Of a stretch of DNA of 43,325 nucleotides, positions 1 through 28,661 are shown in pieces. Under the pieces are notes generated by a model, which was given only the letters and a program-made list of their open reading frames with translations, was not told the DNA's origin and made no database searches. Source of the stretch: Actinomycetota bacterium (GTDB taxonomy: Bacteria > Actinomycetota > Aquicultoria > Aquicultorales > Aquicultoraceae); contig JAGXSZ010000031.1 in NCBI GenBank assembly GCA_018333515.1, positions 81,654 through 124,978 on the forward strand, given 5' to 3'. Position numbers and translations under genes: made by a program. Every line of letters begins with the position of its first letter. The stretch's first letter is position 1.

Positions 1-252
1 GGGTGTCACAGCCTGAACCGGGTAAGTTCGGCTTCGGGTGATTTAAAGATAGACCACCGAGGGCATGTCACAAAAGCCAATATTTCATGTACGCAATGCC
101 ACACGGGCGCGGCCCATCCCAATGTCGGCAAAACCGGCGCGGTGATACCGGCGCGTAAGATGTGTAAGGGCTGTCACGCCACGCGCATGAACGATTGCTC
201 GTTCTGCCATATCAAGAAACACGTGGGGACAAAGGGTTTTGTCCACGACTAG
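1..252 (+). CDS. Hexahaem NapC/NirT-like cytochrome c, 3' part only
   Basis: The window opens inside this gene; the last 83 codons are present in frame from base 1 to TAG. Visible are the GCH tail of a CX4CH site, then CTQCH, CKGCH and CSFCH. It aligns base for base with the end of the next gene at an offset of 738 (for example 190-248 equals 928-986), so it is the first of three tandem paralogues. From those copies I infer a lost N-terminal membrane anchor and three further haem sites. The product should be an extracytoplasmic, membrane-bound electron carrier. Confidence 0.85.
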   Translation, partial: GCHSLNRVSSASGDLKIDHRGHVTKANISCTQCHTGAAHPNVGKTGAVIPARKMCKGCHATRMNDCSFCHIKKHVGTKGFVHD

Positions 253-372
253 CGGAATCAAGCAAATCAACCCCCTGCTGTGCGAATGAAGTCTTGCAAC
301 TATGTAGCAGTTGTCACATAATAAGCGGAACAGACCTATGCTAACAGATGCATCGTGCCAAAGGGGTTTCTA

Positions 373-990
373 ATGTCCGAAGAAAACAGTCAACCTCAAG
401 AAGAACCGACTGCCAAGGAAAAAAAGAGTCTGAAGAAGTACCTCGTCTTGGGTTTCATCGGACTGCTAATAACCTTTCTAGCCATCCCCTACGCCTATAC
501 TTCCAACCCGAAGAGCTGTACCCTCTGCCACAGTATGGATAAATACTACGAATCGTGGCAAAAATCGACACATACCATTGCGGCTAAAAACTGCTTCGAC
601 TGCCATATCGAGCAAGGCGCGGTCAGCCTCTGGATTTACCGGATCAGCTTTTACCGCGAGATATACGCGAGCATAGTCGGCGCCGAACTCAAACCGGCCG
701 GCGCCACCGTGCCCGGTATCGACTCTTGCCAACGGAGCGGTTGTCATAGCCTAAACCGGGTAAGCTCGGCGTCGGGTGATATTAAAATCGACCATCGCGG
801 ACACGTCACCAAGGCCAACCTTTCCTGCATAAAATGCCACCCCGGCGCGGCCCATCCCAATGTCGGCAAAACCGGCGCGTTATTGCCGGCGCGGAAGATG
901 TGTAAAGGCTGTCACGCCGCGCGAATGAACGATTGCTCGTTCTGCCATATCAAGAAACACGTGGGGACAAAGGGTTTTGTCCACGATTAA
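373..990 (+). CDS. Membrane-anchored hexahaem cytochrome c (NapC/NirT-like)
   Basis: 205 residues. A basic N-terminus (about 1-22) precedes one membrane anchor (about 23-43) ending in AYTSNPKS, then CTLCH, CFDCH, CQRSGCH (CX4CH), CIKCH, CKGCH and CSFCH, six haem sites in all. The anchor followed at once by CxxCH and a second CxxCH about 23 residues on is the NapC/NirT/NrfH arrangement, which takes electrons from membrane quinols. I chose ATG 373 because AAGGGG lies six bases upstream; a GTG at 355 in the same frame has no ribosome site. It is the middle copy of a tandem triplication. The redox partner is not known. Confidence 0.85.
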   Translation: MSEENSQPQEEPTAKEKKSLKKYLVLGFIGLLITFLAIPYAYTSNPKSCTLCHSMDKYYESWQKSTHTIAAKNCFDCHIEQGAVSLWIYRISFYREIYASIVGAELKPAGATVPGIDSCQRSGCHSLNRVSSASGDIKIDHRGHVTKANLSCIKCHPGAAHPNVGKTGALLPARKMCKGCHAARMNDCSFCHIKKHVGTKGFVHD

Positions 991-1090
991 TGGGTCGGGC
1001 CACACGCCGGCGTCTCCCATCATGCGCGAGTGCTATAGTCAAGAAGTTGCCCAATAATGACGTCAAGGATGCCCCTTAGTGTTGGTTTAA

Positions 1091-1738
1091 ATGGATGATA
1101 TAAGAGATAATCCCGACAGCGAAAAGCTCATAACCGAAGACGGCGTCGACGAGCGGCCCGACCCGGGCGGTAGCGAGCGCAAAAAACGCGGGGTACTTAA
1201 ATACCTGCTCATTTTGGTTATCGTCTTCTTGGCCGTCCCCTACGCCTACACCTCCAACCCGAAGAGCTGTACCCTCTGCCACGGTATGGAAAAATACTAC
1301 AAGTCGTGGCGGAAGTCGTCGCATTCGGTGGCGGTCAAAAACTGCTTCGGGTGTCACGTCAAGCAAGGCGCGGTCAGCCTCTGGATTTACCGGATCAGCT
1401 TTTACCGCGAGATATACGCGAGCATGGCCGGGGTCGAACTCAAGCCCGCCGGAGCTACCGTGCCCGGTATCGACTCTTGCCAACGGAGCGGTTGTCATAG
1501 CCTAAACCGGGAGAACTCCGCCTCGGGCGATATCAAAATCAATCACCGGATGCATACCACAAAAGTCGACATCGCCTGCATAAAATGCCACCCCGGCGCG
1601 GCCCATCCCGAAGTCGGCGATATCGGTGAACTCACGCCACACCGCAAACTATGCTTTGAGTGCCACCTGTCACGCAAGAACGACTGCGGCTTCTGCCACA
1701 ACAAGCGCTTCTCCGACGCAAGGAGTTACGACCATTAA
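1091..1738 (+). CDS. Membrane-anchored hexahaem cytochrome c (NapC/NirT-like), third copy
   Basis: 215 residues: an acidic and basic cytoplasmic head (1-32), an anchor (about 35-54), then CTLCH, CFGCH, CQRSGCH, CIKCH, CFECH and CGFCH. The order and spacing match the previous gene, including the CX4CH site. Two blocks are identical in DNA (611-674 equals 1362-1425; about 706-760 equals 1457-1511), while the head and last 40 residues have diverged. This suggests recent duplication or gene conversion of the core. A stop codon lies directly before ATG 1091, which fixes the start; no convincing ribosome site is seen. Inferred role is quinol-linked electron transfer out of the membrane. Confidence 0.85.
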   Translation: MDDIRDNPDSEKLITEDGVDERPDPGGSERKKRGVLKYLLILVIVFLAVPYAYTSNPKSCTLCHGMEKYYKSWRKSSHSVAVKNCFGCHVKQGAVSLWIYRISFYREIYASMAGVELKPAGATVPGIDSCQRSGCHSLNRENSASGDIKINHRMHTTKVDIACIKCHPGAAHPEVGDIGELTPHRKLCFECHLSRKNDCGFCHNKRFSDARSYDH

Positions 1739-1790
1739 TAATGTCGCTCGCCTTATTGCCTCATCTAAAAATGTATTCCGGGAGGCTCGC

Positions 1791-1819
1791 TTGTTAATAT
1801 ACGACCGCAATGTTACAAT
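1791..1819 (+). promoter_or_regulatory. Promoter of the dodecahaem gene at 1828 (leaderless)
   Basis: TTGTTA at 1791-1796 and TACAAT at 1814-1819 are 17 bases apart. ATG 1828 lies eight bases past the -10 box, so the transcript would begin at or next to the start codon. Confidence 0.5.
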
Positions 1820-1827
1820 CGAGCAAA

Positions 1828-2877
1828 ATGCGTAAGATAAATTTCCGAAACATAAAATCTAGAATTCGCTTCCCACGCCTCAACCTGCCGGAATCACGAC
1901 AATCTCGCAAGAGGCTTTACGTCAGCGTAGCCGGGGTTGCGGGCATGCTTTTTCTGGTCGCGTTCGGGTACGGTTTCTGGTACACGTCGCAGCCGGGTTT
2001 TTGCGTGAGCTGCCACGAGATGAAGCCGGCGATTAGGGCTTGGAGGACATCGCTTCACTCGGAGGTTACCTGCAACACCTGCCACGCCTCCGGTATTACA
2101 GGTAGCCTTAAGCGGAAAACAAACCTGATAAATGAGGCATACCGGCATTTTACAAAATCGTATGATCCGCAGATAAACCGCGACAGCGAACTGAGCAAGA
2201 AAATTGATAACGACGGCTGCCTCCAATGCCACACGCCGAAACGAATAATCACGCCGCGTAAGTCCCTAATCATGAACCACAATATTCACCTCGAAAAAGG
2301 CGTCAACTGCACGACATGTCATAATCGCGCCGGACATCCCACGAGTCCCGGTTATCAGAACTTCATAAGCATGGACGGGTGCTTCCGTTGCCACGGTCTC
2401 TCAAAAGCCGCCCTGGCACCGGGGAGGTGCGACGCTTGCCACCCGAAAGACCCGAAGGTATTCGACCCCGTTCCGGTCTCACACAAAGTCGGAACATGGC
2501 GAGTGCCCGACCATGGAAAGATAGCGAAGCAAGACACCGCCACATGCTTTATGTGTCACAAGAAAACATACTGTCGAGGTTGCCACGGGGTCGATGTCCC
2601 CCACCCCGAAAAATTCGTCAAGGCGGAGCACGGCTCTTTAGGCAGCAAAAATCCGCAGGTCTGCCGGAAATGCCACCGCGAGAAGGATTTCTGCAACGCG
2701 TGTCACCACAAAGGCTACAATGAGCGATTGGGCGGCTGGGTGTCGATACATAAAAACGTCGTCGCCGTTACCGGCCCCGCGGTTTGCTTTGACTGCCACG
2801 GCCCGACCTACTGCGCCTGGTGCCACGTCCGCGGCGTAAAACAACCCTTGTCCGAGCGACCCGCCAAGAAGCAATAG
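1828..2877 (+). CDS. Membrane-anchored dodecahaem cytochrome c, NapC/NirT-type N-terminus
   Basis: 349 residues from ATG 1828. A basic head (1-30) and one anchor (31-52) lead to CVSCH at 59-63 and eleven more CxxCH motifs (CNTCH, CLQCH, CTTCH, CFRCH, CDACH, CFMCH, CRGCH, CRKCH, CNACH, CFDCH, CAWCH). The first two sites have NapC-like spacing; the rest come as closely spaced pairs, as in the four other dodecahaem proteins of this window. The frame is open to an ATG at 1810, but 1828 fits the promoter at 1791-1819 better. It probably passes electrons from the quinol pool or the hexahaem proteins to surface cytochromes; that is inference. Confidence 0.88.
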   Translation: MRKINFRNIKSRIRFPRLNLPESRQSRKRLYVSVAGVAGMLFLVAFGYGFWYTSQPGFCVSCHEMKPAIRAWRTSLHSEVTCNTCHASGITGSLKRKTNLINEAYRHFTKSYDPQINRDSELSKKIDNDGCLQCHTPKRIITPRKSLIMNHNIHLEKGVNCTTCHNRAGHPTSPGYQNFISMDGCFRCHGLSKAALAPGRCDACHPKDPKVFDPVPVSHKVGTWRVPDHGKIAKQDTATCFMCHKKTYCRGCHGVDVPHPEKFVKAEHGSLGSKNPQVCRKCHREKDFCNACHHKGYNERLGGWVSIHKNVVAVTGPAVCFDCHGPTYCAWCHVRGVKQPLSERPAKKQ

Positions 2878-3047
2878 GCGGTCATGCGGCTGCTCGCCCC
2901 GATTACCGGAATATCGTTGTCTATCCGGCTTTAATCGTTTAGCGCGAGCGACCATGATTACGCTGGTGAGCATTGCGATTGTCTCTTCCGCGTTGCCCCT
3001 ACCACCTAAAAATACACAAGTGCATATTATTCATACTATGTCAATTC

Positions 3048-3076: not shown

Positions 3077-3101
3077 TTATAAATAAAAAGGTGGTTTATT
3101 G

Positions 3102-3785
3102 ATGAGCAGAGGGACTCCTTTCCTCCTAAAAGCGATTACGGCGATCTTGGTCTTGGCGGTCGTTGGCACCGGAGGCGCAATCGTCCGCCACGTCGCCTTC
3201 GACAGCAAAGACACAACGCCCCGGACCGAGTCCGAACGCGCTCTTCTTCTCGCAGTGCAAGCGGTCAAAGTCAACCCTAACGATTCACGCGCCAGGATAA
3301 AACTCGCGGCGGTCTATCTGGATATCGGTCGCGTCAACACGGCGGTCAGCGAAGCGCGAATCGCTACGAAGCTCGCTCCCGACGACGCGGAAGCGTTTTA
3401 CATTCTCGGCCTGGCCAACAAAGAAAAGGGAAACCTGACTGAAGCGGCCCGAACTCTCGAAAAAGCCGCCAAGATGGAGGGTAAACTAGCGCCGTTCTAT
3501 CAAACCTGCTGGTCGGAGTTAGCGCGCATCTACTTGAAGCAGGAGAAATACAAGCAAGCAATCAAAGCATACGATGCCGCCTTGGGCTTCGGGCCGGAAT
3601 CGGCTCTGCTCCTCTACGAGATGGGGCTCGTATACGAACAAAGCGGCGATAAGGGCAAGGCTATGGCATATTTCGAAGAAGCACTCCAGTTTGTGCCCGA
3701 CTATAAAGAAGCGCAAGACGCGCTCGCTAAAGTAAAAAAAGAGAAGGCGACCGCGGCTAAGCCGGAAAAGCCCGCGGCTAAATGA
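3102..3785 (+). CDS. Membrane-anchored TPR protein
   Basis: 227 residues. One N-terminal anchor or uncleaved signal (about 8-30) is followed by at least four tetratricopeptide repeats (about 42-205; alanine and leucine at repeat positions, NPND, APDD and GFGPES turns) and an Ala/Lys/Pro tail. AAGGTGG seven bases before ATG 3102 sets the start. TPR domains bind peptides or proteins, so an extracytoplasmic scaffold is likely. It is first in the module TPR-NHL-GerMN-heptahaem cytochrome; paralogues at 13885, 16924 and 25580 also sit beside cytochromes or propellers. A role in cytochrome assembly is inferred. Confidence 0.8.
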   Translation: MSRGTPFLLKAITAILVLAVVGTGGAIVRHVAFDSKDTTPRTESERALLLAVQAVKVNPNDSRARIKLAAVYLDIGRVNTAVSEARIATKLAPDDAEAFYILGLANKEKGNLTEAARTLEKAAKMEGKLAPFYQTCWSELARIYLKQEKYKQAIKAYDAALGFGPESALLLYEMGLVYEQSGDKGKAMAYFEEALQFVPDYKEAQDALAKVKKEKATAAKPEKPAAK

Positions 3786-3813
3786 TTTAAATTTACGGTT
3801 GGAGGTTACTGTT

Positions 3814-5262
3814 TTGGCGACCGAACGGGTAACGATAGATTATACGACGAGGAGATATATCGCGTTTATAGCGGCGCTTCTCATCGCGCTCCTGACGCTG
3901 CTATTCCTCTACTTCGCATTGACGAAACCGCCTGTTTCCACGACAGCCAAGAAGCAGGAGGAGTTTAGGCACCTCTTCTCAATCTATGGTTTTGAGGGCG
4001 ACCTGCTCCGCCGTCCCAGCGGCGTCGCGCTCGACGTCCAGGGACGGATATTCATCGCCGACACGAGCAAACAACGCGTCGTCGTTTTCGACCGGGAGGG
4101 CACATACTTAACCCAGTTCGGCAACCCGGGAACCGGCAAATACGAGTTTAAAGACCCCATCGCGGTCACCGTCTCCGAGGACGGACGCGTCTTCGTACTT
4201 TCAAAGACCTCGAAGAAAGTCGTGGTCTATAACGGCAATTTTGAGGCGATACACGAGATGAAATTTTCCAACGATGAGCCGCCGCTCGCGATGACTATCC
4301 ATAAGGAACGGCTGTATGTTACTACTATCGGCGGCATTATGATAGGCGACCTCCAAGGCAACCTGATAAGCACGCTCGGCAAGCGCGGCATGGCGCCGGG
4401 AGAGTTCCAGCTGCCCGGAGGTATCGTTATCGGCGGCGACGACACCATATACGTCGCCGATAGCTTGAACTACCGCGTGCAGGCATTGAGTAAAGAGGGC
4501 GAGCCTCTCTGGCAATACGGGCAACCCCTCCCCCCCGATAAGGCCATCACCTACCAGGGCAAGGACAGAAAGTTCGGCCTGCCGGCGAGCATAGCGCTAG
4601 ACGATAACGGTCATCTCTATGTCGTCGACGGCCTCAGCAGCGAAATTACACTGCTAGACACAAAGGGTGAGCGCGTCGATACCATCGGCGATATCGGCCA
4701 TGACGACGGCTTCTTCTACTACCCCGCCGGTGTCGCCTACGCCGGCTCCGGGAAGCTCGTCCTGGCGGATAAGTATAACGACCGCGTCCAGGTCTTCCAG
4801 GTGCCGATAGCGATATCCGCGACCGACCGGATCTTCGCATGGGCGCCATACCTGCTCGTACTCTTGATACCGCTCCTGCTCCGGCTCCTTACACGCTCGC
4901 GCTTGCAGGTCGTCGCGACCGAGGATTTCCTCCAGAACGCGATTGCGGGAGATAGCGGAGAGAGTCTGGCAAGCGCGTTTAAGAGACTTGTCGTCCCGCC
5001 ACAGACCGTCGAGCGGATGAGCGACGTGATACCGCGGGCGTTGCGCCTGACTGAGCGAGCGATCAATGAGCGTGAGCTGCAAACGCTCCCGATGCTCTCC
5101 GAGCTAACGGACGGACAAGCGTCCGAACTGGCGCTCGCGCATAGCATCAAAGGCAAGCGGCTTCTGCTGACGGAGTCGCCTCTGCTCAGAAAAGCCGCCG
5201 GCGAGTTAGGCATCGCGACTATGAACTATGCGGAGTTTTCGACCGCATACGGGACGAAGTAG
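3814..5262 (+). CDS. Membrane-anchored NHL beta-propeller with cytosolic C-terminal domain
   Basis: 482 residues. Anchor at about 15-36, then about six NHL blades (about 50-335; recurring RPSGVALD, LPGGIVIG, YYPAGVAY, DRVQVF), a second membrane segment (about 342-360), and a C-terminal domain (365-482). That tail carries VVATED near its start and KGKRLLLTESPLLRKAAGEL near its end, which looks to me like a PIN-type nuclease fold, but I cannot confirm it. GGAGG at 3801-3805 lies eight bases from TTG 3814; the upstream TTG 3799 is part of the ribosome site. The propeller should face outward and the tail the cytoplasm. The propellers at 14608 and 22960 lack this tail. Confidence 0.82.
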   Translation: MATERVTIDYTTRRYIAFIAALLIALLTLLFLYFALTKPPVSTTAKKQEEFRHLFSIYGFEGDLLRRPSGVALDVQGRIFIADTSKQRVVVFDREGTYLTQFGNPGTGKYEFKDPIAVTVSEDGRVFVLSKTSKKVVVYNGNFEAIHEMKFSNDEPPLAMTIHKERLYVTTIGGIMIGDLQGNLISTLGKRGMAPGEFQLPGGIVIGGDDTIYVADSLNYRVQALSKEGEPLWQYGQPLPPDKAITYQGKDRKFGLPASIALDDNGHLYVVDGLSSEITLLDTKGERVDTIGDIGHDDGFFYYPAGVAYAGSGKLVLADKYNDRVQVFQVPIAISATDRIFAWAPYLLVLLIPLLLRLLTRSRLQVVATEDFLQNAIAGDSGESLASAFKRLVVPPQTVERMSDVIPRALRLTERAINERELQTLPMLSELTDGQASELALAHSIKGKRLLLTESPLLRKAAGELGIATMNYAEFSTAYGTK

Positions 5263-5269
5263 GAGAAAG

Positions 5270-5854
5270 ATGTTGATGAAAAGATCGATCGCCTTGCCCA
5301 TATCCATAATCATGCTCCTCCTTGTCGGCGGCGCGTTAGGCTGCGCCGGTTCATCGGACGCCCCGCCGCCGGAGATGACTTTGCCCGATAAAACAAGGAG
5401 TGTATCGGTCTTCTACGCTACCGGCAAGACGCTGGTCGAGGAGCGCCATATCATCGCCGACGATAAAGAGGTCATAAAGACGACTCTCATCGCGTTGCTC
5501 GCCGCTCAACCAAAAAACAACACCGACATAGCGATAGTCCAACCGGAGTGCGACATACTCGCTGTAACCGTAGACGACAAAGGGGCGGCAACGGTCGATT
5601 TCAGCCGCGAAGTGCTCGATTTCGAAGCCTCGAAGAAAGAGAAAGTCCTCGCGTATGGCGCGATCATCGAGACGCTCAAACAGTTCGAGCAGATCAAATC
5701 GGTTAAATTCTCGGTCGAAGGGCAAGAAAAAGGTTCGCTTTCGGGTAAAGATGTACATAGGTTCTGGAACGACGTATCGCTTATCGGCCAACCCTGGAAA
5801 ATAGATCGTAAGCAAACACCGGATGACCAATCGCAAGAAGAGACCTCGAATTAG
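5270..5854 (+). CDS. GerMN-domain lipoprotein
   Basis: 194 residues. A hydrophobic signal ends in ALGC, a plausible lipobox, then a short linker and a GerMN-type domain (about 45-165; pattern VSVFYATG...VVTVDD-like strand...ATVDFSREVLDF). GerMN domains occur in spore-germination GerM and in envelope lipoproteins of non-spore-formers, where their ligand is unclear. GGAG precedes ATG 5270; ATG 5276 is possible. It follows the propeller gene by seven bases and so belongs to its operon, but a new promoter at 5856 starts just after it. Its job in the cytochrome module is unknown. Confidence 0.75.
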   Translation: MLMKRSIALPISIIMLLLVGGALGCAGSSDAPPPEMTLPDKTRSVSVFYATGKTLVEERHIIADDKEVIKTTLIALLAAQPKNNTDIAIVQPECDILAVTVDDKGAATVDFSREVLDFEASKKEKVLAYGAIIETLKQFEQIKSVKFSVEGQEKGSLSGKDVHRFWNDVSLIGQPWKIDRKQTPDDQSQEETSN

Positions 5855-5855
5855 C

Positions 5856-5962: not shown

Positions 5963-6142
5963 CGAAAACTTACGCTGGTATTTGAGAATTTAAGTGCAAT
6001 GTTGGGCCACTCTATCGACGAACGATGCTTTAACCGCAAGACTCATCGCAGCCGGCATCTTAGCATGCTTCCCCTACATTGATAACCGCATACGTCTGAA
6101 CGGATCCCTTAAGCTTATTCCTAAGGAAAGGAGGTGAGAATT

Positions 6143-7627
6143 ATGAAAAAAGCGATACTATTTGCGTTCGCCGCGATATTCGTGCTTACAATGGCCGGAA
6201 CCGCCTTGGCCGTCAGCCCCACCACTTTTGACACCAACACCGGTTCATCGATGTGGACCTACAAGGATAGGGTCGATACCGCTGCCAAGACCGAGGGTTC
6301 GTACAAGGCGTTTGACGACCAGACAACCAAGATGTACAGCAACCCGCACGGCGGCTACGACACCGCGACCAACAAATGCAAGGTCTGCCATGCGGTCCAC
6401 CGCGCGGAGGGCGCCTACTTCATGTTGCGCTCCGATACGCAGGACGATGCCTGCGACTATTGCCACATCGGAGGTTCGGCACACTCGACTAAGGTCGTCT
6501 ACGACCTCAACGCCGCCGGCAAATCGACACCGAACGGCCACACGATCGGCGCGAGCGCGACTGTTCCTGACAGCTCGGTAAAACAATGGACGGAGCCGGT
6601 TACCCTGACGACGACCGACGCCAGCGGTACCGCCGTCAGCGAGACGGTCGACGTCCGTCGCTACAGCGCCGACCGGAACAAGATGTTCCGCTTCGCCAAG
6701 CACCACGGCCAGAGCGCCGCGGGAGCCAACAGAGCCGGCTACATGCGCATCGGCCCGCTCGCGCTTCGTTGCATGAACTGCCACCAGCCGCACAACGCCG
6801 TCAACATGGTTTGGCGACCGACCGCTCTGGAGACCGAAGCAAAGCTAGCCGGCGGTTACAAGCTGCTGCGGCTGATGCCGTCGGCATCGATTCAGGGGAC
6901 CGCTACGATCGCAGGTCATTACGAAGATTATGATGTGGGTATGCAGACGCATAAGGCGTACACCGAGTACAATCCGGCGGCCGGCAAGGTCTACGTCAAC
7001 GCCGCGAATACGATAAAGGTACCCGAGACCACAATGACGGCATCGAACACCGGCCCGGGCAAGACCATCTACACGGCGTACACGGGTGTTGAGGCTGCTC
7101 ACCAGTACGGCCCGAAGCGCGACCCGCAGACCGTCAACCAGTACACCCTTTCGCCCTGGTGCGCCGACTGCCACAACCTGAACATCGGCTACTGGAAGAA
7201 CACGTCAAACGCGGAACTCGGCTTTAAGAGCCACTCCGACCGGACGCACCCGGCACCGTACACCGGCGCGTACAACGGCCCGGCGCAGTGCTACAGCTGT
7301 CACCGGAACGACCTGCCGATCGTACCGGCAACAGTCCACTATGGTGACCCTGGAGGCTTCTATAAGGGTTGCGAACGTTGCCACTTCGGAACCGGCTCGT
7401 ACAAGGTCGCAAAGGACGACGTCGATGGGGCGGGAACCAAGTCCGACTTCCCGCACAGCGGTCAAGGCAACACGATCAAGTTGCTCGGACCATGGCAGAC
7501 CCAGGCAGATCCGGCGAAAACCACCAACATCTGGATGGATACGACCGGCACAGCTGCCAACGTCACCTCGAACAACCTCGACGGGGTGTGCTTGAGATGC
7601 CACGTTGGTATCGGCACGAACCATTAA
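6143..7627 (+). CDS. Secreted heptahaem cytochrome c
   Basis: 494 residues. A signal peptide (1-23, cleavage after ALA) is followed by CKVCH (79-83), CDYCH, CMNCH, CADCH, CYSCH, CERCH and CLRCH. Two sites extend to CxxCHxxH (CKVCHAVH, CMNCHQPH), as in doubled-CXXCH cytochromes. NPHGGY...NKCKVCHAVH is shared with the cytochromes at 15731 and 17822. Long Thr/Ala/Gly-rich stretches between sites suit an extracellular protein. ATG 6143 lies eight bases past GGAGG within AAAGGAGGTGA, an unusually strong ribosome site, so high expression is likely. It may form filaments like Geobacter OmcS/OmcE; that is inference. A terminator follows. Confidence 0.85.
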   Translation: MKKAILFAFAAIFVLTMAGTALAVSPTTFDTNTGSSMWTYKDRVDTAAKTEGSYKAFDDQTTKMYSNPHGGYDTATNKCKVCHAVHRAEGAYFMLRSDTQDDACDYCHIGGSAHSTKVVYDLNAAGKSTPNGHTIGASATVPDSSVKQWTEPVTLTTTDASGTAVSETVDVRRYSADRNKMFRFAKHHGQSAAGANRAGYMRIGPLALRCMNCHQPHNAVNMVWRPTALETEAKLAGGYKLLRLMPSASIQGTATIAGHYEDYDVGMQTHKAYTEYNPAAGKVYVNAANTIKVPETTMTASNTGPGKTIYTAYTGVEAAHQYGPKRDPQTVNQYTLSPWCADCHNLNIGYWKNTSNAELGFKSHSDRTHPAPYTGAYNGPAQCYSCHRNDLPIVPATVHYGDPGGFYKGCERCHFGTGSYKVAKDDVDGAGTKSDFPHSGQGNTIKLLGPWQTQADPAKTTNIWMDTTGTAANVTSNNLDGVCLRCHVGIGTNH

Positions 7628-8389: not shown

Positions 8390-9403
8390 ATGAACGCACC
8401 TGTCAGGCCGGATAAAACCGAACAGGTCGACCGCGTCCTGCAAAGGGTCTACTACGGGCTACTCAGCGTCATCTTGGGTCTCTTCGTATACTTCAATATA
8501 GTCGGCGCCCTCGGGGCGATACCCGCCGTATGCGGCGTTTGCCACACGCCTTCGCATACGTCCTTGGCGCAATCTAAACACAGCGACATCGGGTGCGTAT
8601 CATGCCACGCGGGCAACGAACCCTTCGGTATCCTCTCGCAGCGGTTAGCGCTCGCGCGGATGATCCCGGCCCAGCTCAGCGGTATCTACCGAAGACCCGT
8701 CACAACGGTCGTTCCCGCGAAGAACTGCATCAACTGCCACAAGCCTATCGCGACTAAAGTCGTCGAGAGCAAGGCTCTGCGGGTCAGCCACAAGGAGATA
8801 CTGGCGGCAGGCTATGGGTGCGGTGACTGCCACAGCACCGTGGCTCACGGCAAGAGCGCCGCGCGACAGAACTTCGCCGAAATCAGCAAATGCCTGACAT
8901 GCCATAATAATACCACCGCATCGAGCGAATGCGTTTCTTGCCACATCAATGATACCAAACGCGACCCGTCGCATCGCGTCCGGGGCGTGTGGCAGATATC
9001 CCACAGCGAGAATTGGCGCCAGACACACGGCATGGACAATTTGAACACCTGTCAGGCGTGTCATAGCAAATTCTATTGCGGCACCTGTCACAACACCGAG
9101 CTGCCGCACTCGAGTTCCTGGATTGTCTCTCACGGTAAAGAGGTAAAGAACTCGAACGAGGCCGCGGCGGGCTGCAAGCAGTGCCACAGCGAATCATTGT
9201 GCAATAACTGTCATTCGCTCGAGATGCCGCATCCGGGGAGCTTTTTGTCGCGGCATAGCGCCCTCGTCAAAAAAGACGGCGACAAAACCTGCTACCAATG
9301 CCACCTGAAAGAGTCGTGCGCCAGGTGCCATAAGTATCATACCCACCCGGGCATACCCGAGAACAAATTGAAGCTCTTGCGCGAGGAGGCCGGCCTTGAT
9401 TAA
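8390..9403 (+). CDS. Membrane-anchored dodecahaem cytochrome c (NapC/NirT-type)
   Basis: 337 residues: short head, one anchor (about 22-44), then CGVCH at 48-52 and eleven further CxxCH sites (CVSCH, CINCH, CGDCH, CLTCH, CVSCH, CQACH, CGTCH, CKQCH, CNNCH, CYQCH, CARCH). Conserved histidines lie between paired sites (KHSD, VSHKE, AHGK, THGMDN, LPHSSS, MPHPGS) and probably serve as distal haem ligands. AAGGTGG sits eight bases before the ATG. It overlaps the next dodecahaem gene by eight bases, so the two are co-translated and may work as a pair. Confidence 0.88.
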   Translation: MNAPVRPDKTEQVDRVLQRVYYGLLSVILGLFVYFNIVGALGAIPAVCGVCHTPSHTSLAQSKHSDIGCVSCHAGNEPFGILSQRLALARMIPAQLSGIYRRPVTTVVPAKNCINCHKPIATKVVESKALRVSHKEILAAGYGCGDCHSTVAHGKSAARQNFAEISKCLTCHNNTTASSECVSCHINDTKRDPSHRVRGVWQISHSENWRQTHGMDNLNTCQACHSKFYCGTCHNTELPHSSSWIVSHGKEVKNSNEAAAGCKQCHSESLCNNCHSLEMPHPGSFLSRHSALVKKDGDKTCYQCHLKESCARCHKYHTHPGIPENKLKLLREEAGLD

Positions 9404-11777: not shown

Positions 11778-11814
11778 AAGATAAAGCCGGTTATCTTGAA
11801 AAGAGGTGGTAACT

Positions 11815-17640: not shown

Positions 17641-17821
17641 CCGGTTTTTCTAGATGGACCCATCAAAAAATGCAAGACCATGTGTGCAAGAAGCAGTACC
17701 CGAGTGTGTTTGTTGCAGTAAGCTTTTAGCAAGTGCGGTTCCCTAATGGTAGTCTAGGTCGTTGCAGAAGTGATGCACAGAGACGAACGCTTCTTTTGCG
17801 CCCATTTGAAGTTTGGGTGGT

Positions 17822-20441: not shown

Positions 20442-21569
20442 CTAATTCTTCAACGGTTTTGCCTTTTTAATGGGATTTTTGAGGGTATAATCGGTCGTCT
20501 CCTTGTGGCAGATGAGACAAAACTCCTCCGACCGGTGGCAATTTTGGCACGATGCGGCGGATACCTTCGAAGCGGGACCATGCCGCTTTACCCAACCTGT
20601 GCCGTGCGGCGAATCCGCGTGACATTCCCGGCAGTGCGCCGGCTGATGGCACTCCGCGCAGAGTTTCTTGCTCACAAAACCTTCTGTGGCGTGTTTTCCC
20701 GTCTTCCAGTCGTTGGGGTGCGGAATCGGCAGAGTATGGCATTCGAGACATCTCTTGGTCGAATGGCAATTGCCGCAGGTTATCTTGTCCGGCAAACTCG
20801 CCGCCGGATACTCATCCCTCTTGATGCTCGTAGGAATCTCACCGGTACTCAGATGGCAAGTCGCGCATTCGGCCGATGCCTTCTTCTGGTTGTGGCAATC
20901 GACGCACCGGCTCATGCCGAAGTTGTCGAGCTTCCGCTTCTCAACATGGAAGAGAGTTTTGGATGAATGGCAGTCCATGCATTTAAAACCCGCCTCTATC
21001 GGTTCTTTGTGCTCCATCTTGACGATACGTTTAGCCCGAACCCGCAAGAGCACGTCGCTGTGACAGCGCAGGCACGCTTCATTCGATATCGATCCTTCGC
21101 TCACTTCGCCGACCATCTCGGATTTTGCGATCGCCATCTCTACCAGCTGTAACTTCTCGATGAAGACGCCGGAAATACCGGGTTCCTGGTGGCAACCGGC
21201 ACAAGATACTTCTTTATGGACGGTCTTGCTCGCGTTCTTATACGCGGGCTGCATCTCGTGGCAGCTAGCGCAAAACTCCTGTTTCGATGAGTAAAACATC
21301 GCGGCGCCAAGCGTGCCGATGGTAAACAAGCCGGCGAGCGCGCCGGCGATATAGCGAATCCGAATGCTTCGACGTAGCTTTTTCTCCTCCACGTGACGCA
21401 ACGGTTTCTCGCTCGGGTGAACGAAGAATATGGCGATTGTGACGAGGACTATAAAGATGACGAGGATGCCGAGGCCAATTAGGACCGGTATCTCCCTCAT
21501 ATGAAGTTCTGGCTGGCGTACAGCGTCGATCATGCGATCGATTAGGCCGCCGATGACCGGTTCGCTCAT
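20442..21569 (-). CDS. Dodecahaem cytochrome c with two membrane segments
   Basis: 375 residues: membrane segments at about 27-49 and 73-93, CASCH at 100-104, then CAGCH, CLRCH, CMDCH, CVDCH, CATCH, CGNCH, CLECH, CAECH, CRECH, CQNCH and CLICH. Order and spacing match the + strand protein at 9396, whose tenth site is CPCH where this one has CRECH. A Lys-rich tail ends the protein. Its ATG overlaps the stop of the upstream dodecahaem gene (ATGA), so the two are translationally coupled. Proposed role is quinol-linked electron export. Confidence 0.88.
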   Translation of the reverse strand: MSEPVIGGLIDRMIDAVRQPELHMREIPVLIGLGILVIFIVLVTIAIFFVHPSEKPLRHVEEKKLRRSIRIRYIAGALAGLFTIGTLGAAMFYSSKQEFCASCHEMQPAYKNASKTVHKEVSCAGCHQEPGISGVFIEKLQLVEMAIAKSEMVGEVSEGSISNEACLRCHSDVLLRVRAKRIVKMEHKEPIEAGFKCMDCHSSKTLFHVEKRKLDNFGMSRCVDCHNQKKASAECATCHLSTGEIPTSIKRDEYPAASLPDKITCGNCHSTKRCLECHTLPIPHPNDWKTGKHATEGFVSKKLCAECHQPAHCRECHADSPHGTGWVKRHGPASKVSAASCQNCHRSEEFCLICHKETTDYTLKNPIKKAKPLKN

Positions 21570-22645
21570 TCCTTACCCTTCTCGTTATCCGCGTCGCCGC
21601 AACGATGGACATGTTTTTCATGGCACGATTTGCAATCTTTTGCGGAATGGCACGACAGGCACACCTTCTCGCCCACCAATCTCTCTTGCACGACGTGGGT
21701 ATTTATCCACAATGGTCTATGCGGCATCGTAACCTTGTGGCACCCGCGGCAGAGGCTCTCTTCCTTATGGCACATCCGGCAGTCTTCAGGGTTGCGCTTA
21801 GCTTCTTCGCCATGAATATAGGGCCAGCCTTCCGGGTGCGGGACCGCCGAGTGGCAACGCTCGCAATCTTTTTCAAAATGGCACGATTTGCAGATTGAAA
21901 GGCTCCTTGAGCCATGAAGTTTCGGCCAATTCTCATCGTGGTTGATACCCCAGGTCTGGGCGGGCTTCATGCCCAGCCAGACGCTGTCGAGGTGACATGT
22001 CTCACATCGCGCGGACGCCTCCTCGTCATTATGGCAAGAACTGCACTTCTCCATCATCGAAACCTTATTGGCAGCCGGTTTTCGACTGTGGGCCACTCCG
22101 TCGTGACAGTCAACGCAATTAATTCCGGCTTCAATTATCTCCCGGTGGCTCACCATCACTTTGAATTTTGTCTTAACACCGCGCACAACATCATCGTGGC
22201 AACTTAGGCAGTTCTTGTTATCGACGGGCGATTTCATCGAGAGGCGGAAGTCGCCGTTTATATAATTATAAAACATCCTTCCCTGCTCGAGCTTTTGAAT
22301 GGGCAGACTCATGACACTGGCCTTCTTATGACACGCGGAGCAGATAATCCCATTGTGCCGAGATGCCCGCAGCTCCTTGGATGCGGCTTTCATCGGGTGG
22401 CAGGCCTGACAAGCAATGGGATGAGATGTAAGCGACGATACGATGACGAGTACGGCCAGAATGGTCGCGAGAAAAAGGGGTATCGGCAAGCCGTATAGGC
22501 GTTCGATGCCGAACTTGTCGAGCAGGCTCCGAACGACAAAATAGAAGATCGTAAGAAAGACAAAGGCTAAAGCCAGCGACACGATTACGACATCAGCGTC
22601 ACTAAACCTGTCCAATAAGACCTTGATATCCGTAGGCAATGCCAC
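21566..22645 (-). CDS. Dodecahaem cytochrome c with two membrane segments
   Basis: 359 residues: membrane segments at about 19-38 and 54-73, CQACH at 79-83, then CSACH, CLSCH, CVDCH, CSSCH, CETCH, CKSCH, CERCH, CRMCH, CRGCH, CLSCH and CKSCH, and a charged tail. The distal-histidine pattern (VSHRE, AHSRK, KLHGSR, VPHPEG, MPHRPL) resembles that of the protein at 8390. The start is GTG 22645 or TTG 22639; AGGAAG lies just upstream. A TATAAT on the - strand (22669-22664) may be its -10 box, though no clear -35 is seen. First gene of a two-gene operon that mirrors 8390-10577. Confidence 0.87.
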   Translation of the reverse strand: MALPTDIKVLLDRFSDADVVIVSLALAFVFLTIFYFVVRSLLDKFGIERLYGLPIPLFLATILAVLVIVSSLTSHPIACQACHPMKAASKELRASRHNGIICSACHKKASVMSLPIQKLEQGRMFYNYINGDFRLSMKSPVDNKNCLSCHDDVVRGVKTKFKVMVSHREIIEAGINCVDCHDGVAHSRKPAANKVSMMEKCSSCHNDEEASARCETCHLDSVWLGMKPAQTWGINHDENWPKLHGSRSLSICKSCHFEKDCERCHSAVPHPEGWPYIHGEEAKRNPEDCRMCHKEESLCRGCHKVTMPHRPLWINTHVVQERLVGEKVCLSCHSAKDCKSCHEKHVHRCGDADNEKGKE

Positions 22646-22959
22646 TTCCTAAATACCACCAATATTATAAGATTACCTGCTGACCGCCGTATTTGTTAGA
22701 GCGAGGGTCTCGATGTGTAAGGGATGGCGTTGCTATAAACCAGCGGCATCGTGCATATGAATTATATCACAAACCGACTGCCTGCCGCATGCTTTTGGCA
22801 AAGACCTCTCTGTTATAAGACCAACCCGCCATATGTCGTTTGCGGGCGCCGATAAACCTCGTGATTAGCGATAAAATATGAAGTCTGTACGCGGCCATAA
22901 CGCTGTGTATCCCGATTATGTTATTATTAAGCCGAAAGTATCCTCAAGGAGTGAACGAT

Positions 22960-23925
22960 ATTAACAGGCGGCTCTTCGCGACCATCATCTTTCTGATAAC
23001 GCTGCTCGGCACGGCCGGCATCCTCTATTACTCCGTCGCTAACGTGGCGGACAACGAAGACCCGAAACCGGCCCTCAAGAGCAACGCGCCCACCTTTGAT
23101 TCTACTATTGCAGGCAAAAACGAGGCGCAACTTAGCGGTCCGCTAAACCTTGTCTATAGCGACGGCTTGCTATTCATAACAGACACCGAAAACCTACGCC
23201 TTGCCGTATATTCACAGACCGGGTCGTTTAAACGCACGATTGATTTGCGGGCGGAAAACATCGCGATTAAACCTCTCGGGATAACCATAGACGAAAAACG
23301 GCGCCTCTATGTATCGGTTTCGCAAGGCTCCGACAACACTATCCTCGTGTTTGACAGAAGCGGACGTTTCCTCTACCGATTCCCCGAAGACGCCGGGAAC
23401 TCCGGTTCTTATATCACACCCGGAAAAGCGATGGCGCTCTTTGCCCATGGCGACAAACTATATGTGACCGACATAGTCGACCATGACATCAAAGTCTACA
23501 GCTTAGAAGGAGACCTCGTCACCCGGTTCGGCCGACCCGGTTCGGCCAAGGGCGAGTTTTTGTACCCTAACGGCATAGCGGCCGATAATAGCGGAAAAAT
23601 ATTTGTAAGCGACTCGAACAATGCGCGCGTGCAGGTCTTTGCCGCGAACGGCGAGTTCCTCCGCCTCTTCGCGCAGCCCGGCGGCGACGCGCTGGCTTTG
23701 CCGCGGGGTATGGCATTAGACGGCAAAGGAAGGCTCCATATCGTCGACACCCTAAAACATAAAGTCTTTGTCTTCACAAAAGAGGGTCGCTTTCTATATT
23801 CATACGGCAAGTTCGGAACAGACGATGGCGGCTTATCTTACCCGAACGGAATTGCCATAGACACGACGAGCGGCAAGATATATGTGGCGGACAAGACCAA
23901 TAACCGCGTCTCGGTTTGGGAGTAG
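22960..23925 (+). CDS. Membrane-anchored NHL beta-propeller
   Basis: About 321 residues from ATT 22960: one anchor (about 6-27), then NHL blades (GPLNLVYS, KPLGITID, YPNGIAAD, LPRGMALD, YPNGIAID), closing with NNRVSVWE. The frame is open to an ATG at 22918, but that has no ribosome site, while AAGGAG (22946-22951) lies exactly eight bases before ATT 22960 and the anchor begins right after it. It diverges from the dodecahaem pair and precedes a secreted cytochrome. The 270-base divergent gap upstream shows no further gene. Confidence 0.8.
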   Translation: MNRRLFATIIFLITLLGTAGILYYSVANVADNEDPKPALKSNAPTFDSTIAGKNEAQLSGPLNLVYSDGLLFITDTENLRLAVYSQTGSFKRTIDLRAENIAIKPLGITIDEKRRLYVSVSQGSDNTILVFDRSGRFLYRFPEDAGNSGSYITPGKAMALFAHGDKLYVTDIVDHDIKVYSLEGDLVTRFGRPGSAKGEFLYPNGIAADNSGKIFVSDSNNARVQVFAANGEFLRLFAQPGGDALALPRGMALDGKGRLHIVDTLKHKVFVFTKEGRFLYSYGKFGTDDGGLSYPNGIAIDTTSGKIYVADKTNNRVSVWE

Positions 23926-24064: not shown

Positions 24065-25336
24065 GTGACAGCTCGGCTTAGATTATTTCGTAAATCCGCC
24101 TTCATCTCACCATTAACCGTTTTCATACTAATAGCGGGCGCAATGTTCCTAGCCCTCTTGTCGCCTGCTACGGTGTGGGCGGGCACGATATCGGTCAGCT
24201 CCGAGCCGGCCGCGCGAGGAAGCGTGACCCCGGGCACGGGTAAGCTGCTTATGCAGCGGCTGGTGCTGCGAACCGATGCCGGCACAGCGCAATGGTCTGC
24301 TATAAAACTGAGCGAGTTCGGAACGAGCGACGCCAGCCCCACAATCGAGGCGGTCACTATCTACAAAGAGACAAACGGCGTTGGCGACCTGCAGTTTAGC
24401 GGCACCGCCGACACGACGGTCAGCGCGTCGCCCCCCACATTCGGCGCGGATGAGACGGTCTTTACGTTCGGCGCGGCGCAGGCTTTAAGCGAAACCCCGC
24501 AGACGTTCTATATCGTCTACAAAGTAAGCAAGCTGGCGAATACCAGCGGTGGTCGAACTATCGGTTCGCGGTTGAGCGACCAGACCTATATAATCGCCGA
24601 CAGCACAGTCGGGGCCTTCACCAACCTGCAATCGAGAGAGCTGACGCTGGTCTCCTCGGCGCACGCGACCGACGCCAACCCTAGTCCCTTCTCGTCGACG
24701 ACCAACCTTTGCCAAACCTGTCACGCGGTCCATCTCGCGCCTGATTTCGGGCCCGAGTTCAACCTTACCGGCGGCGACAGGACCCGCCGGATTCTAAAGC
24801 AACCCTATTTCGAGAGCCCCGCGGTGCTCAACTACTACCCGTCCGACACCTATAACGCCCTCTGCTTTAGCTGCCATGACGGAACCGGCTCGAACATCGA
24901 TATCAAATCCAAGTACAATTCGACCAATCCCAATATCAAGTACCCTGGCCACCGCACCAAACGAGAATCGACCGAGACCGTCGGTTACAAACCGCCGAAC
25001 GCGCCGCCCAACAAGTATTTTGTCGGCACAAAATTGCCCTGTATGCTCTGCCATGACATACATACGTCGAACCGGAAAAGCCACAAGATGCTCGCCGACA
25101 AACTCTATGAATATGCGGTCGCCCAAGGCTGGCAAGACCCAAATGATAACGGCCGAATCGATTCGACAAATGACGAGATGTGCGTCGTCTGCCATATGCG
25201 CCCGAATGAGACGACACGAACCGCGATGATCGTCTTCGGCTACCGGTTGATCCTGCCCTCAAAACCAGGACATGACGCAAACATCTCGGGCTGCACGAAT
25301 TCTTTGTGCCACGGGAACGTCCACGAACTCAACTAA
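24065..25336 (+). CDS. Secreted Ig-like domain plus pentahaem cytochrome c
   Basis: 423 residues: signal peptide (cleavage near 39, VWA), an Ig-like beta domain (about 42-200) related to those in the protein at 17822, then CQTCH (near 217), CFSCH, CMLCH, CVVCH and a final CTNSLCH. The last is a CX4CH site, as in the hexahaem genes at the left end. CQTCHAVHLAPDF recalls the CHAVHLA motif of the other secreted cytochromes. GTG 24065 follows AAGGAG by ten bases. With the propeller before it and a TPR gene after it, this is the fourth copy of the module. A surface-exposed electron carrier is likely. Confidence 0.82.
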   Translation: MTARLRLFRKSAFISPLTVFILIAGAMFLALLSPATVWAGTISVSSEPAARGSVTPGTGKLLMQRLVLRTDAGTAQWSAIKLSEFGTSDASPTIEAVTIYKETNGVGDLQFSGTADTTVSASPPTFGADETVFTFGAAQALSETPQTFYIVYKVSKLANTSGGRTIGSRLSDQTYIIADSTVGAFTNLQSRELTLVSSAHATDANPSPFSSTTNLCQTCHAVHLAPDFGPEFNLTGGDRTRRILKQPYFESPAVLNYYPSDTYNALCFSCHDGTGSNIDIKSKYNSTNPNIKYPGHRTKRESTETVGYKPPNAPPNKYFVGTKLPCMLCHDIHTSNRKSHKMLADKLYEYAVAQGWQDPNDNGRIDSTNDEMCVVCHMRPNETTRTAMIVFGYRLILPSKPGHDANISGCTNSLCHGNVHELN

Positions 25337-25382
25337 GACTAAGCACGAATGACTCTTGCATGCAATACCCCGCCGCGTCTGC

Positions 25383-25579: not shown

Positions 25580-26371
25580 TTGGGCAAGCGCGCTTCAATC
25601 AGAAAGGATCGGACGCAACGAATACAACCCGGTATCGGTAAAGCGGTCGTCATAACGCTCGCCGTGCTGATTTTAATATCGCTATTAGGGGTGGGCGTAA
25701 GATTCTTCTCGAAAGGGCCCGCAACCGATTTAGCCCCCCAACAAAATGCCGACCAGCCGATTATCGATGGTAAGCAAGCAATCATAGAGAAGTACAATAA
25801 AGGCGAGTTCGTCGAGGTCATCCCAAGCCTGGAGAAGTATCTCTCAGGAAACCCGAACGACCAAGAAGTGCGGGAACTTCTGGCGTCGGCGTATCTCTTG
25901 AGCGGCAACGGGGCCCGCTCGGTCCAGGAATACCAGACCATCCTCAAGTCAAAACCCGGCGATGCTGATACCCTATATAAAATCGGCGTAGTCTTGCAGC
26001 ACATGGACAGGGGCAACGAGGCGATAACTTACCTCAATCAAGCGGTTAAGGCAGCGCCGGATGTGATTCTTTTCCACTCCGAGTTAGCCAGAGCCAACAC
26101 CAGGGCGAAGTTTTACCGAGAAGCTATCGAAGAATGGAAGATAGTCCTCAATCTCCTGCCTCCCGCCGACAAGGCCAGGGCAAGCGCGCTCGCGGAGGTC
26201 GCAAATGTCCACATACTCCAAGGCGAATTCGCGCTCGCCAAAGAGGCTATCGCGAACGGCTTGAAGATCGAGCCGGCGAGCGACGCGCTTTTAGAGCTTG
26301 AAAAAAAACTAGGTGGACAAATCCAGGTCGAGCCGGCGCCGAGTTTAGAGGAGACCGCCGGTGGAAATTAG
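25580..26371 (+). CDS. Membrane-anchored TPR protein
   Basis: 263 residues: basic head, one anchor (about 22-43), then TPR repeats (about 66-235; VRELLASAYLLSGNGARSV, TLYKIGVVLQHMDRGNEAI, FHSELARANTRAKFYREAI) and a short acidic tail. TTG 25580 lies seven bases past GGAGG. It overlaps the Ig-rich surface protein gene by 11 bases, so the two are co-translated. That coupling suggests the TPR protein helps export or display its partner. Confidence 0.8.
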   Translation: MGKRASIRKDRTQRIQPGIGKAVVITLAVLILISLLGVGVRFFSKGPATDLAPQQNADQPIIDGKQAIIEKYNKGEFVEVIPSLEKYLSGNPNDQEVRELLASAYLLSGNGARSVQEYQTILKSKPGDADTLYKIGVVLQHMDRGNEAITYLNQAVKAAPDVILFHSELARANTRAKFYREAIEEWKIVLNLLPPADKARASALAEVANVHILQGEFALAKEAIANGLKIEPASDALLELEKKLGGQIQVEPAPSLEETAGGN

Positions 26372-28661
26372 ACAGCTTCGCCCGTTGTGCTTGCGCTCAC
26401 TAAAACTTCTAATCGCCGTCTTCTTGATCATCACGGGCGCTCAAGGCTCGGCGGCGGCGAGCCAGGTTATAGTAAACGGCTCCTTCGAGAAGGACCTCGG
26501 TGAATGGCGGGTACGTGAGGTGACCAAGGGAGCCGTCTTCCAGTGGGATGAGGCCGGAGCCGGCGCCGATGGCGGGGCTCTTTTCAAGACGACAGGCCGG
26601 AGCCGGCGGGGTGAGACGCAAGCCAGCCAAAACAAGTGGGTTCATATCGAGTCCGGAAGCCGAGGCTTGCTAAGATTTTCATGGAAAAAGAATTGGTCGG
26701 CAATCCTCCCGATAGAGCACAAAGTCTACGTCAACCTGATAAAACCCGACCAAACCGTCGCGTCGATTTGGTCGAACAAGACGCTCCTCAACGACAACAC
26801 CTGGCGAGTCGAGTCGATAGACGTCAGCCGCTTTCTCGACCAGAAGGGGCAGTATTCCCTGGTAGTAGGAGCGTCTTTTGAGAACGGCAAGGCCAACAAC
26901 GCCGCCACTTACGCATGGTTCGACAACGTTAGCCTGGAAGTCTCGAACAGCATGCTCAAAGGACCAAAGACCTCTTTTTTAATGCCGTCCGGCCGCGATA
27001 AGATAGTCGGCAAAACATACCTGGTCACAGGTATCGCTCACGACGATATCGGCGTCTCGAAAGTGCGGGTGGCTATCGAGCGCCTCTACGACAACACCTA
27101 CTGGAACGGAAATAGCTGGGTGGCGACCGAGTTCTGGAACGAGGCTAAGTCTTCCGGTTCCAGCGGAAACACCGTCGCGTCCTGGAGGTATAAATGGCAG
27201 TTGCCGACGAGCGATGGCGCCCTCTACAGGCTCTACGCGCGCACCGAGAACATCACTTCAAACACCGAGCTGACACCGGCTGAAAGTATCGCCCAGGTCG
27301 ACAATGTCGGCCCGACCGGCAGCATCTATGTCGAAGGCGAAGCCGAGTACGTAAATACCGAAGCGGTACGGATCGATATCGATATAAAGGGCGCGACTAA
27401 GATGCGATTCAGCGCGGACGACGCGAAGACTTGGTTCCCCTGGGAAAGCTACAAGGCATCGAAGAAGCTGACACTGCCGGAAGGCGACGACACAAAAATC
27501 GTCACCGCGCAATTCAAGGACGACTCCGGCAACAGCTACCAGATATCCGATAGCATCATCCTCGACACGACGCAACCGGTGACCAGGCATATCTTCCCCG
27601 CGCAAAAAGCCAAGAATATCTCGACAGATTCGAGCGTCGGCGTGGTGTTCTACGAAAAGATGGCTCCCTGGAGCTTCCGGAACGACGGCACGGAACTCGG
27701 CTCTACCTTCTATCTCAAGCAAGGTTCGCGCTGGGTGGCGGCTAAGGTATCATATGACGACAAAACCAAGACCGCGAAGCTCGTCCCTTACGGCCCGCTG
27801 GATTCAGGCACGACCTATACTGTCCACCTTAAAGACCTGATTAAGGATAAGGCCGGCAATTCGCTTGCCGCTAATTTTTCGTGGGACTTTACGACCAGCG
27901 GCTCATACACGTCCCTTTTTAAGGAAACGGTCGGCGCCGTGGGCGGCACTATTCATGGCGGCGACCAATCGATAAGCCTCGAAGTGCCCGCCGATGCGCT
28001 GACGGCGGAGACACTCCTCACCATCGAGGAGCTGAGAGATAAGAAAGTACCCCCGATGAAGGGTATGACCAGGTATAGCCCGGTATACCAGCTGTCGCCC
28101 AAAGAGCTTCCTTTCAACACGGCGGCGCTGCTGAAAATAAAATACAGACAGGATGAAGTCCATAATCCGACCGAGCTGCGACTAGTCTCCTTCGATGAAG
28201 AACGGGAGAAGTGGTTGCCGGTGCAAAACGCGGTAATCGACCTGGTCAACAGCCAAATAACAGCCAAAATAACAAAACTGATGACCGTCACCGTGACCGC
28301 CCAGGACGATGCTTCACCGCCCTCGACCACTATTATAGCGCCGACCGGCGCCTCTGAGATTACGGGAAGACTCTTCAATATCTTCGGCGTATCGCGCGAC
28401 AATTCCGGTATCGCCCGCCTGGATATATCGATAAGGCGCCAATCCGACAACGCCTACTGGACCGGCTCCGAGTGGCAGCCGACGGAAGTTTGGCTGAAAA
28501 CAAAGGTGGTAACCGAGAAAGACCGCTCCAAGGCAACCTGGTCTTACGGTTGGCGGCTCCCGGACAACAAGTTCACGGTCTATGAGATACGCGCTCGCGC
28601 GACGGACAAGAGCGGCAACGTGGAGTCAAACGCCGACCTGGTACGGGTACGGTTGAGGTAG
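26361..28661 (+). CDS. Large secreted Ig-rich surface protein
   Basis: 766 residues: signal peptide (cleavage near 33), a jelly-roll or carbohydrate-binding-like N-terminal domain (about 35-195; VNGSFEKDLGEW...YAWFDNVSLEV), an Ig-like module (about 210-320), an intermediate domain, an SbsA/Big_5-like domain (about 410-515; TQPVTRHIFPAQKAKNISTD), a ZU5-like domain (about 520-630; ISLEVPADALTAETLLTIEE) and a second copy of the Ig module (about 655-766). The two copies share YWNGNSW/YWTGSEW and W(R/G)LP motifs. No haem sites. GTG start after AGGAG. Likely an adhesin or sheath protein displayed with the cytochromes; the ligand is unknown. Confidence 0.75.
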   Translation: MEIRQLRPLCLRSLKLLIAVFLIITGAQGSAAASQVIVNGSFEKDLGEWRVREVTKGAVFQWDEAGAGADGGALFKTTGRSRRGETQASQNKWVHIESGSRGLLRFSWKKNWSAILPIEHKVYVNLIKPDQTVASIWSNKTLLNDNTWRVESIDVSRFLDQKGQYSLVVGASFENGKANNAATYAWFDNVSLEVSNSMLKGPKTSFLMPSGRDKIVGKTYLVTGIAHDDIGVSKVRVAIERLYDNTYWNGNSWVATEFWNEAKSSGSSGNTVASWRYKWQLPTSDGALYRLYARTENITSNTELTPAESIAQVDNVGPTGSIYVEGEAEYVNTEAVRIDIDIKGATKMRFSADDAKTWFPWESYKASKKLTLPEGDDTKIVTAQFKDDSGNSYQISDSIILDTTQPVTRHIFPAQKAKNISTDSSVGVVFYEKMAPWSFRNDGTELGSTFYLKQGSRWVAAKVSYDDKTKTAKLVPYGPLDSGTTYTVHLKDLIKDKAGNSLAANFSWDFTTSGSYTSLFKETVGAVGGTIHGGDQSISLEVPADALTAETLLTIEELRDKKVPPMKGMTRYSPVYQLSPKELPFNTAALLKIKYRQDEVHNPTELRLVSFDEEREKWLPVQNAVIDLVNSQITAKITKLMTVTVTAQDDASPPSTTIIAPTGASEITGRLFNIFGVSRDNSGIARLDISIRRQSDNAYWTGSEWQPTEVWLKTKVVTEKDRSKATWSYGWRLPDNKFTVYEIRARATDKSGNVESNADLVRVRLR

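Follow-up and report, generated by a model that had tools for sequence, protein, structure and literature searches.

A 43,325-nucleotide stretch of the genome of an Actinomycetota bacterium (G000:C31:81654-124978, the window; the genome comprises 2.33 Mb in 40 contigs) carries four sets of genes in which a membrane-anchored tetratricopeptide repeat (TPR) protein and, in three of the four, a membrane-anchored NHL propeller accompany a secreted multihaem cytochrome; a fifth set (E) is located on another contig of the same genome. Taken as a whole, the data make it fairly likely that each set is a secretion-and-assembly module for one extracellular multihaem cytochrome and that the E-type cytochromes are selenoproteins. 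Judged from profile comparisons, the B- and C-type cytochromes show remote homology to OmcS from Geobacter sulfurreducens, over the full length and haem by haem, and the E type very probably represents, on the basis of its sequence, a new family of selenocysteine (Sec)-containing multihaem cytochromes, distinct from ExtKL.

The original prediction, made from the DNA letters, had described four versions of the TPR/NHL/secreted-cytochrome set, one of them lacking the propeller, and the open reading frames (ORFs) together with their Pfam matches bear this out. The set without a propeller is module C, for which a plain secreted cytochrome had been expected; the cytochrome turned out to be fused to extracellular domains. 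The genes of the sets are as follows (window positions):

3099..3785 (start 3099 or 3102), +, module A, membrane-anchored TPR protein (TPR_2 7.5e-20; weak CcmH/CycH TPR 3.3e-7)
3799..5262, +, module A, NHL protein consisting of an N-terminal membrane helix, propeller, second helix and C-terminal PIN-fold domain (NHL 7.6e-27)
5228..5854, +, module A, Germane-domain lipoprotein (PF10646 4e-15), adjoining the A-type NHL gene in relatives too
6134..7627, +, module A, secreted 7-haem cytochrome (signal peptide, 7 CxxCH; B-type profile E ~1e-35)
13885..14583, +, module B, membrane-anchored TPR protein (TPR_17 8.5e-27)
14608..15576, +, module B, membrane-anchored NHL propeller (NHL 2.7e-30)
15731..16639, +, module B, secreted 6-haem OmcS-like cytochrome (profile to OmcS 5.1e-13, six haems; shuffle control)
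16924..17640, +, module C, membrane-anchored TPR protein (TPR_2 1.5e-20), found in relatives after the B cytochrome, too
17813..20356, +, module C, 847-residue surface protein with an OmcS-like 6-haem domain at its C terminus (B-type profile 1e-110, residues 569-847) and an fn3-like stretch
22918..23925, +, module D, membrane-anchored NHL propeller (NHL 4e-29)
24065..25336, +, module D, secreted 4(+1)-haem cytochrome
25580..26371, +, module D, membrane-anchored TPR protein (Pfam)
26361..28661, +, module D, large secreted immunoglobulin (Ig)-like (Big_5) protein after the TPR gene (PF13205 4.4e-18)

This arrangement is not due to chance, since no NHL gene of the genome lies outside such a set: the 11 NHL repeats detected genome-wide (PF01436) are confined to four proteins, three of them encoded in the window and the fourth in set E, which lies outside the window on contig C7 (locus L005, G000:C7:55000-74999), next to genes for a Wzy_C ligase and for a 12/10-haem pair. 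The module propeller (E≤1e-20) was found in 34 of the 36 genomes of the class (Candidatus Aquicultoria, Actinomycetota; the propeller of module B shares 94% identity with Candidatus Aquicultor records), and the arrangement is also kept in some families outside the class. When genes within three genes on the same strand were counted as neighbours, 59 of 68 distinct NHL genes with examined surroundings had a TPR neighbour, 54 a multihaem neighbour and 46 both; 13 of the other 22 sit near the end of a contig or locus. The family's 11 genomes hold some 45 NHL genes (counted by hand), with only one complete neighbourhood (G008:C13) lacking any multihaem or TPR neighbour and another (G010:C162) cut by a contig end. 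Co-occurrence of TPR, NHL and cytochrome genes in related genomes, on which the original prediction had staked itself, is thus conserved. Searching from the cytochrome side, we found an adjoining NHL gene at 7, and a TPR gene at 6, of 16 loci outside the class; no plasmid-borne relatives were found.

In the loci of relatives, each cytochrome type is accompanied by its own TPR and NHL type. The A type combines the Germane lipoprotein with a 7-haem cytochrome, whereas the B type has Wzy_C upstream, a 6-haem cytochrome and TPR downstream. D-type loci comprise an 850-residue 6-haem protein, a divergent 12-haem pair, NHL, a 4-5-haem cytochrome, TPR and a protein of ~770 residues (an ORF of 768-780 residues at the place of the Big_5 gene); E-type loci comprise cyclophilin, TPR, NHL, a split cytochrome and spermidine synthase. 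Among the fetched loci, the membrane-fused spermidine synthase (L005 4205-5917; 17 E-type loci) was seen beside E-type modules only.

The cytochromes of types A, B, C and E have in common the motif series PHGGY..CxxCHxxH / CxxCH / CxxCHxxH / CxxCH. A profile of 41 B-related sequences retrieved OmcS (6ef8) as its top match in the PDB (5.1e-13, residues 8-406), with all six haems collinear; an earlier, smaller profile had OmcE (1.6e-6) and OmcS (2e-4) as top PDB matches, and PDB searches with single sequences gave no useful match. The score of OmcS, 51 bits, was reached by none of 1,000 shuffles in which its haem motifs were kept fixed and its remaining residues shuffled (maximum, 37 bits), and the maximum rose to 43 bits when neighbouring His residues were also held fixed (n=1,000). 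Without exception, the 41 sequences keep the PHGG His and the CHxxH His of haems 1 and 3; the conserved non-motif His residues of the B type are H44, H61, H139, H261 and, in part, H101. The earlier likening of the cytochromes to Geobacter filament proteins is supported, as remote homology to OmcS, for the B/C type. An OmcS-like 6-haem C terminus was also seen in two giant surface proteins of 1,678 residues (L139 7149-12182, -) and 1,373 residues (L133 9634-13752, +), which carry fn3, Ig-like or beta-helix domains before the 6-haem domain.

E-type cytochromes appear as a 4-haem ORF followed, in frame, by a 3-haem ORF, and in every split copy the separating stop is a TGA at one fixed site (YGHDxxxRH-TGA-[AGS]R...GPxCRNCH). 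The readthrough product would be a single 7-haem chain with haems on both sides of the site, with sequence and length kept on both sides and with a common C terminus, RGLP. A pattern search in which the flanks were fixed and the site codon left free returned TGA 18 times, TGC 6 times, TGT once and no other codon (n=25), and a tree of 26 sequences, 19 Sec and 7 Cys forms, requires at least five changes. A distant family of the phylum has UGA forms as well (L116, L118), and both forms are present in the genome studied here:

L005 6123-8447, -, E-type cytochrome, UGA form
L005 1199-3556, -, E-type cytochrome, UGA form
L141 212-2455, +, E-type cytochrome, UGA form
L140 698-2998, -, E-type cytochrome, Cys (TGC) form

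The same genome encodes tRNA-Sec (anticodon TCA, 76.4 bits), SelB, SelA and SelD in one cluster on contig C23. Downstream of the UGA, the UGA forms have a hairpin resembling a Sec insertion sequence, with a GGA loop at ~23 nucleotides. Its Pro-Glu codons read CCG GAG in 16/16 UGA forms versus 1/7 Cys forms, for the same protein sequence (Fisher 7e-5), and the local folding energy is -7.2 in UGA forms versus -4.2 in Cys forms; since neither the Fisher nor the Mann-Whitney test allows for the relatedness of the sequences, these p-values are indicative only. One UGA form, a copy from f55 (L118), is without the hairpin sequence.

If the UGA were a true stop, the downstream ORF would give a 3-haem protein of its own through restart, for which most copies offer an ATG within 3 to 4 codons. 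However, the stretch from UGA to ATG keeps its residues while its codons change synonymously, the position of the ATG varies (L015), the Met available for restart is an internal residue in the Cys forms, and the site has switched between UGA and Cys at least five times, with the hairpin codons fixed in UGA forms only. Moreover, one UGA copy (L164) has no ATG, GTG or TTG among the codons just after the UGA, making immediate restart unlikely. We consider restart very improbable, and in the selenoprotein reading the ribosome would read the single in-frame UGA as Sec, directed by the hairpin just downstream. Because this Sec would directly follow a conserved His (RH-UGA-xR), it may tune the adjacent haem or act as a redox site.

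In having an in-frame UGA, the E type resembles two known multihaem cytochromes, ExtKL (GSU2937/2936, NF040886) and the Sec-containing octahaem tetrathionate reductase. E-type proteins matched neither the NF040886 model (none at E 0.1) nor the TIGR04315 model, and the accessible part of a 2026 list holds no OmcS-like entry, which together argue for a new selenoprotein family. ExtKL furthermore has five N-terminal haem motifs and a C-terminal part unlike anything characterised, while the E type has haems on both sides of the Sec.

Three further observations concern recoding. UGA-interrupted cytochromes, sought in all fetched loci, were absent from the window modules, and a TGA between two membrane cytochromes (L023, L127) was rejected as recoding, as it looks like an ordinary gene end. 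A fused, 755-residue E-type copy (L017 12198-14465, +) is without the YGHD..RHU segment, but masked runs preclude its interpretation. Finally, the SelD match (G000:C23:59610-60527, -) reads through one TGA, and SelD itself may thus contain Sec.

Besides the sets, positions 1-28661 encode two 6-haem and five 11/12-haem membrane cytochromes resembling NapC/NirT. The ORFs of this part hold 98 haem motifs (95 CxxCH and 3 CX4CH), close to the approximately 99 counted originally. These membrane cytochromes, and a ligase-type gene upstream of module B, are as follows:

355..990, +, 6-haem membrane cytochrome, NapC/NirT-like (5 CxxCH and 1 CX4CH; PF03264 2.7e-12, motif count)
1091..1738, +, 6-haem membrane cytochrome, NapC/NirT-like paralogue (PF03264 6.2e-9)
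1810..2877, +, 12-haem membrane cytochrome, NapC/NirT-like (PF03264 7.8e-17)
8390..9403, +, 12-haem membrane cytochrome, pair member 1 (pair kept beside modules in relatives)
9396..10577, +, 11-haem membrane cytochrome, pair member 2 (PF03264 1.8e-12)
11806..13842, +, Wzy_C (O-antigen-ligase-type) membrane protein with C-terminal TPR (PF04932 3.5e-19; same neighbour in relatives)
20442..21569, -, 12-haem membrane cytochrome, one of a pair
21566..22645, -, 12-haem membrane cytochrome, one of a pair (D-type loci of relatives contain the same divergent pair)

Beyond the gene content, its conservation and the B/C-OmcS relationship, we infer an electron path and roles for the TPR protein and the propeller. 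The 12/11-haem membrane pairs, given their likeness to quinol-oxidising NapC/NirT, would take electrons from quinol and pass them outward. The TPR protein may hold the apocytochrome for haem loading, a role suggested by the weak resemblance of these proteins to CcmH/NrfG-type (CcmH/CycH) TPRs, after which the membrane propeller would dock the completed cytochrome on the outside of the membrane; an OmcS-like chain or a conduit spanning the wall could then be built from the secreted cytochromes. Finally, the modules would have been duplicated and specialised as units, giving the 7-haem A, the 6-haem B, the fused surface protein of C, the 4-5-haem D and, on contig C7, E.

Several points weigh against this proposal. 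The E-type UGA cytochrome loci of f55 genomes (L127) have no adjoining TPR or NHL gene. Multihaem profiles also match other cytochromes; moreover, the A-type profile alone scores no better against OmcS than the shuffles do and the E-type profile has no match in the PDB, so that we claim direct OmcS homology for the B/C type alone, with types A and E joining the family through the B profile only (~1e-33 to 1e-37). An AlphaFold2 model of cytochrome B is weak (predicted local distance difference test [pLDDT], 66), and a Foldseek search with that model returned no match. To these points can be added the relatedness of the sequences behind the hairpin statistics.

It is quite conceivable, albeit in our view somewhat short of an even chance, that the TPR and NHL proteins serve cytochrome maturation in general and act as envelope scaffolds, and that the secreted cytochromes work as monomers, either as terminal reductases or as electron shuttles bound to the wall, rather than as filaments. 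The match of the TPR proteins to the CcmH/CycH TPR model, although below the cut-off, fits this explanation, and so does the presence, in module C and further copies, of fused fn3, Ig-like and beta-helix domains of the kind usual in surface-displayed proteins. Wire formation, in addition, is not proven by homology to OmcS: among the OmcS paralogues of Geobacter, it is known for OmcS alone (PMC12977616, a 2026 study), and as homology by itself does not identify wires, we put forward filament formation by the module cytochromes as a hypothesis. On the other hand, a general maturation factor would not need a separate TPR and NHL type for each cytochrome type, and the B-type members cover the whole of OmcS. 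A more specific version of the dedicated-module reading, in which E-type cytochromes are selenium-containing OmcS-like subunits of a nanowire or wall conduit, with the Sec beside a haem-ligating His tuning or catalysing electron transfer outside the cell and with one wire per TPR protein and PIN-tailed propeller, strikes us as rather unlikely.

That tail is a PIN-fold domain at the C terminus of the A-type NHL protein (window 4903-5259, +), behind the second membrane helix. It has no Pfam match, but its AlphaFold2 model (pLDDT 91.9) gave Foldseek matches to PIN domains, and the order of N-terminal helix, propeller, second helix and PIN-fold domain is kept in 18 homologues (A- and E-type NHL). 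The role of export or polymerisation factor originally assigned to the NHL proteins may therefore be incomplete as far as the A and E types are concerned. This layout would suit transmembrane sensors in which the propeller, on the outside, detects the cytochrome or its ligand, while RNA or protein targets are controlled by the PIN-fold domain on the inside; we find this doubtful, because the PIN-fold domain has no invariant residue across the 18 homologues, casting doubt on nuclease activity, and because B- and D-type NHL proteins are without it. The lack of an invariant residue indicates that the domain probably serves for binding rather than cutting.

The pairing of TPR and NHL genes, which the original prediction knew of in no Gram-positive-like lineage, is not new in itself. 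Dethiobacter alkaliphilus, of Gram-positive type, has both within its multihaem clusters, and the same guess about secretion and positioning has been made there (PMC10376724); as far as the accessible part of that paper goes, module structure, a link to OmcS and Sec are not described. OmcS shares with the cytochromes found here the six haems in the same order and the His sets at haems 1 and 3, while the module cytochromes are smaller or larger and belong to a monoderm phylum. The osc operon of OmcS in Geobacter has, according to papers citing its description, dedicated folding and secretion genes. Two features of E-type loci recall its neighbourhood, with the Geobacter gene identities likewise taken from citing papers: a spermidine synthase lies between OmcS-like cytochromes, as GSU2502, by locus number, lies between omcT and GSU2501, and a peptidyl-prolyl isomerase stands beside them. 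The TPR partner, PIN-tailed propeller, Wzy_C ligase and Sec present here are not reported for OmcS in the portions of the literature at hand. Beta-propeller proteins also stand beside extracellular multihaem cytochromes in the Desulfovibrio ferrophilus islands (one of which has a peptidyl-prolyl isomerase as well) and at the OmcE locus of Geoalkalibacter; these clusters, however, are Gram-negative, and no TPR partner was noted in them.

OmcS-related cytochromes with a conserved assembly neighbourhood are thereby extended to the monoderm-phylum Actinomycetota, and the TPR protein, propeller and ligase become testable partners for cytochrome export. The E type, if our reading is true, would add a new family of selenoproteins to extracellular electron transfer, and since a single genome contains both a natural Sec version and a natural Cys version, the role of selenium in a haem chain becomes directly testable.

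Wzy_C proteins with a TPR tail adjoin the modules repeatedly, both in the window and in L005 (14344-16419, -), and from their position one might guess that they glycosylate the secreted cytochromes. The L005 locus additionally contains a match to a group II intron (D1-D4-3, 52.5 bits; 18766-18895, -). The cytochrome region of the window is flanked by genes assigned by eye, namely, one for a PAS-GGDEF protein (28674-30329, -) and the purine-synthesis genes PurE, PurH, PurN, PurM and PurF (32754-42563).

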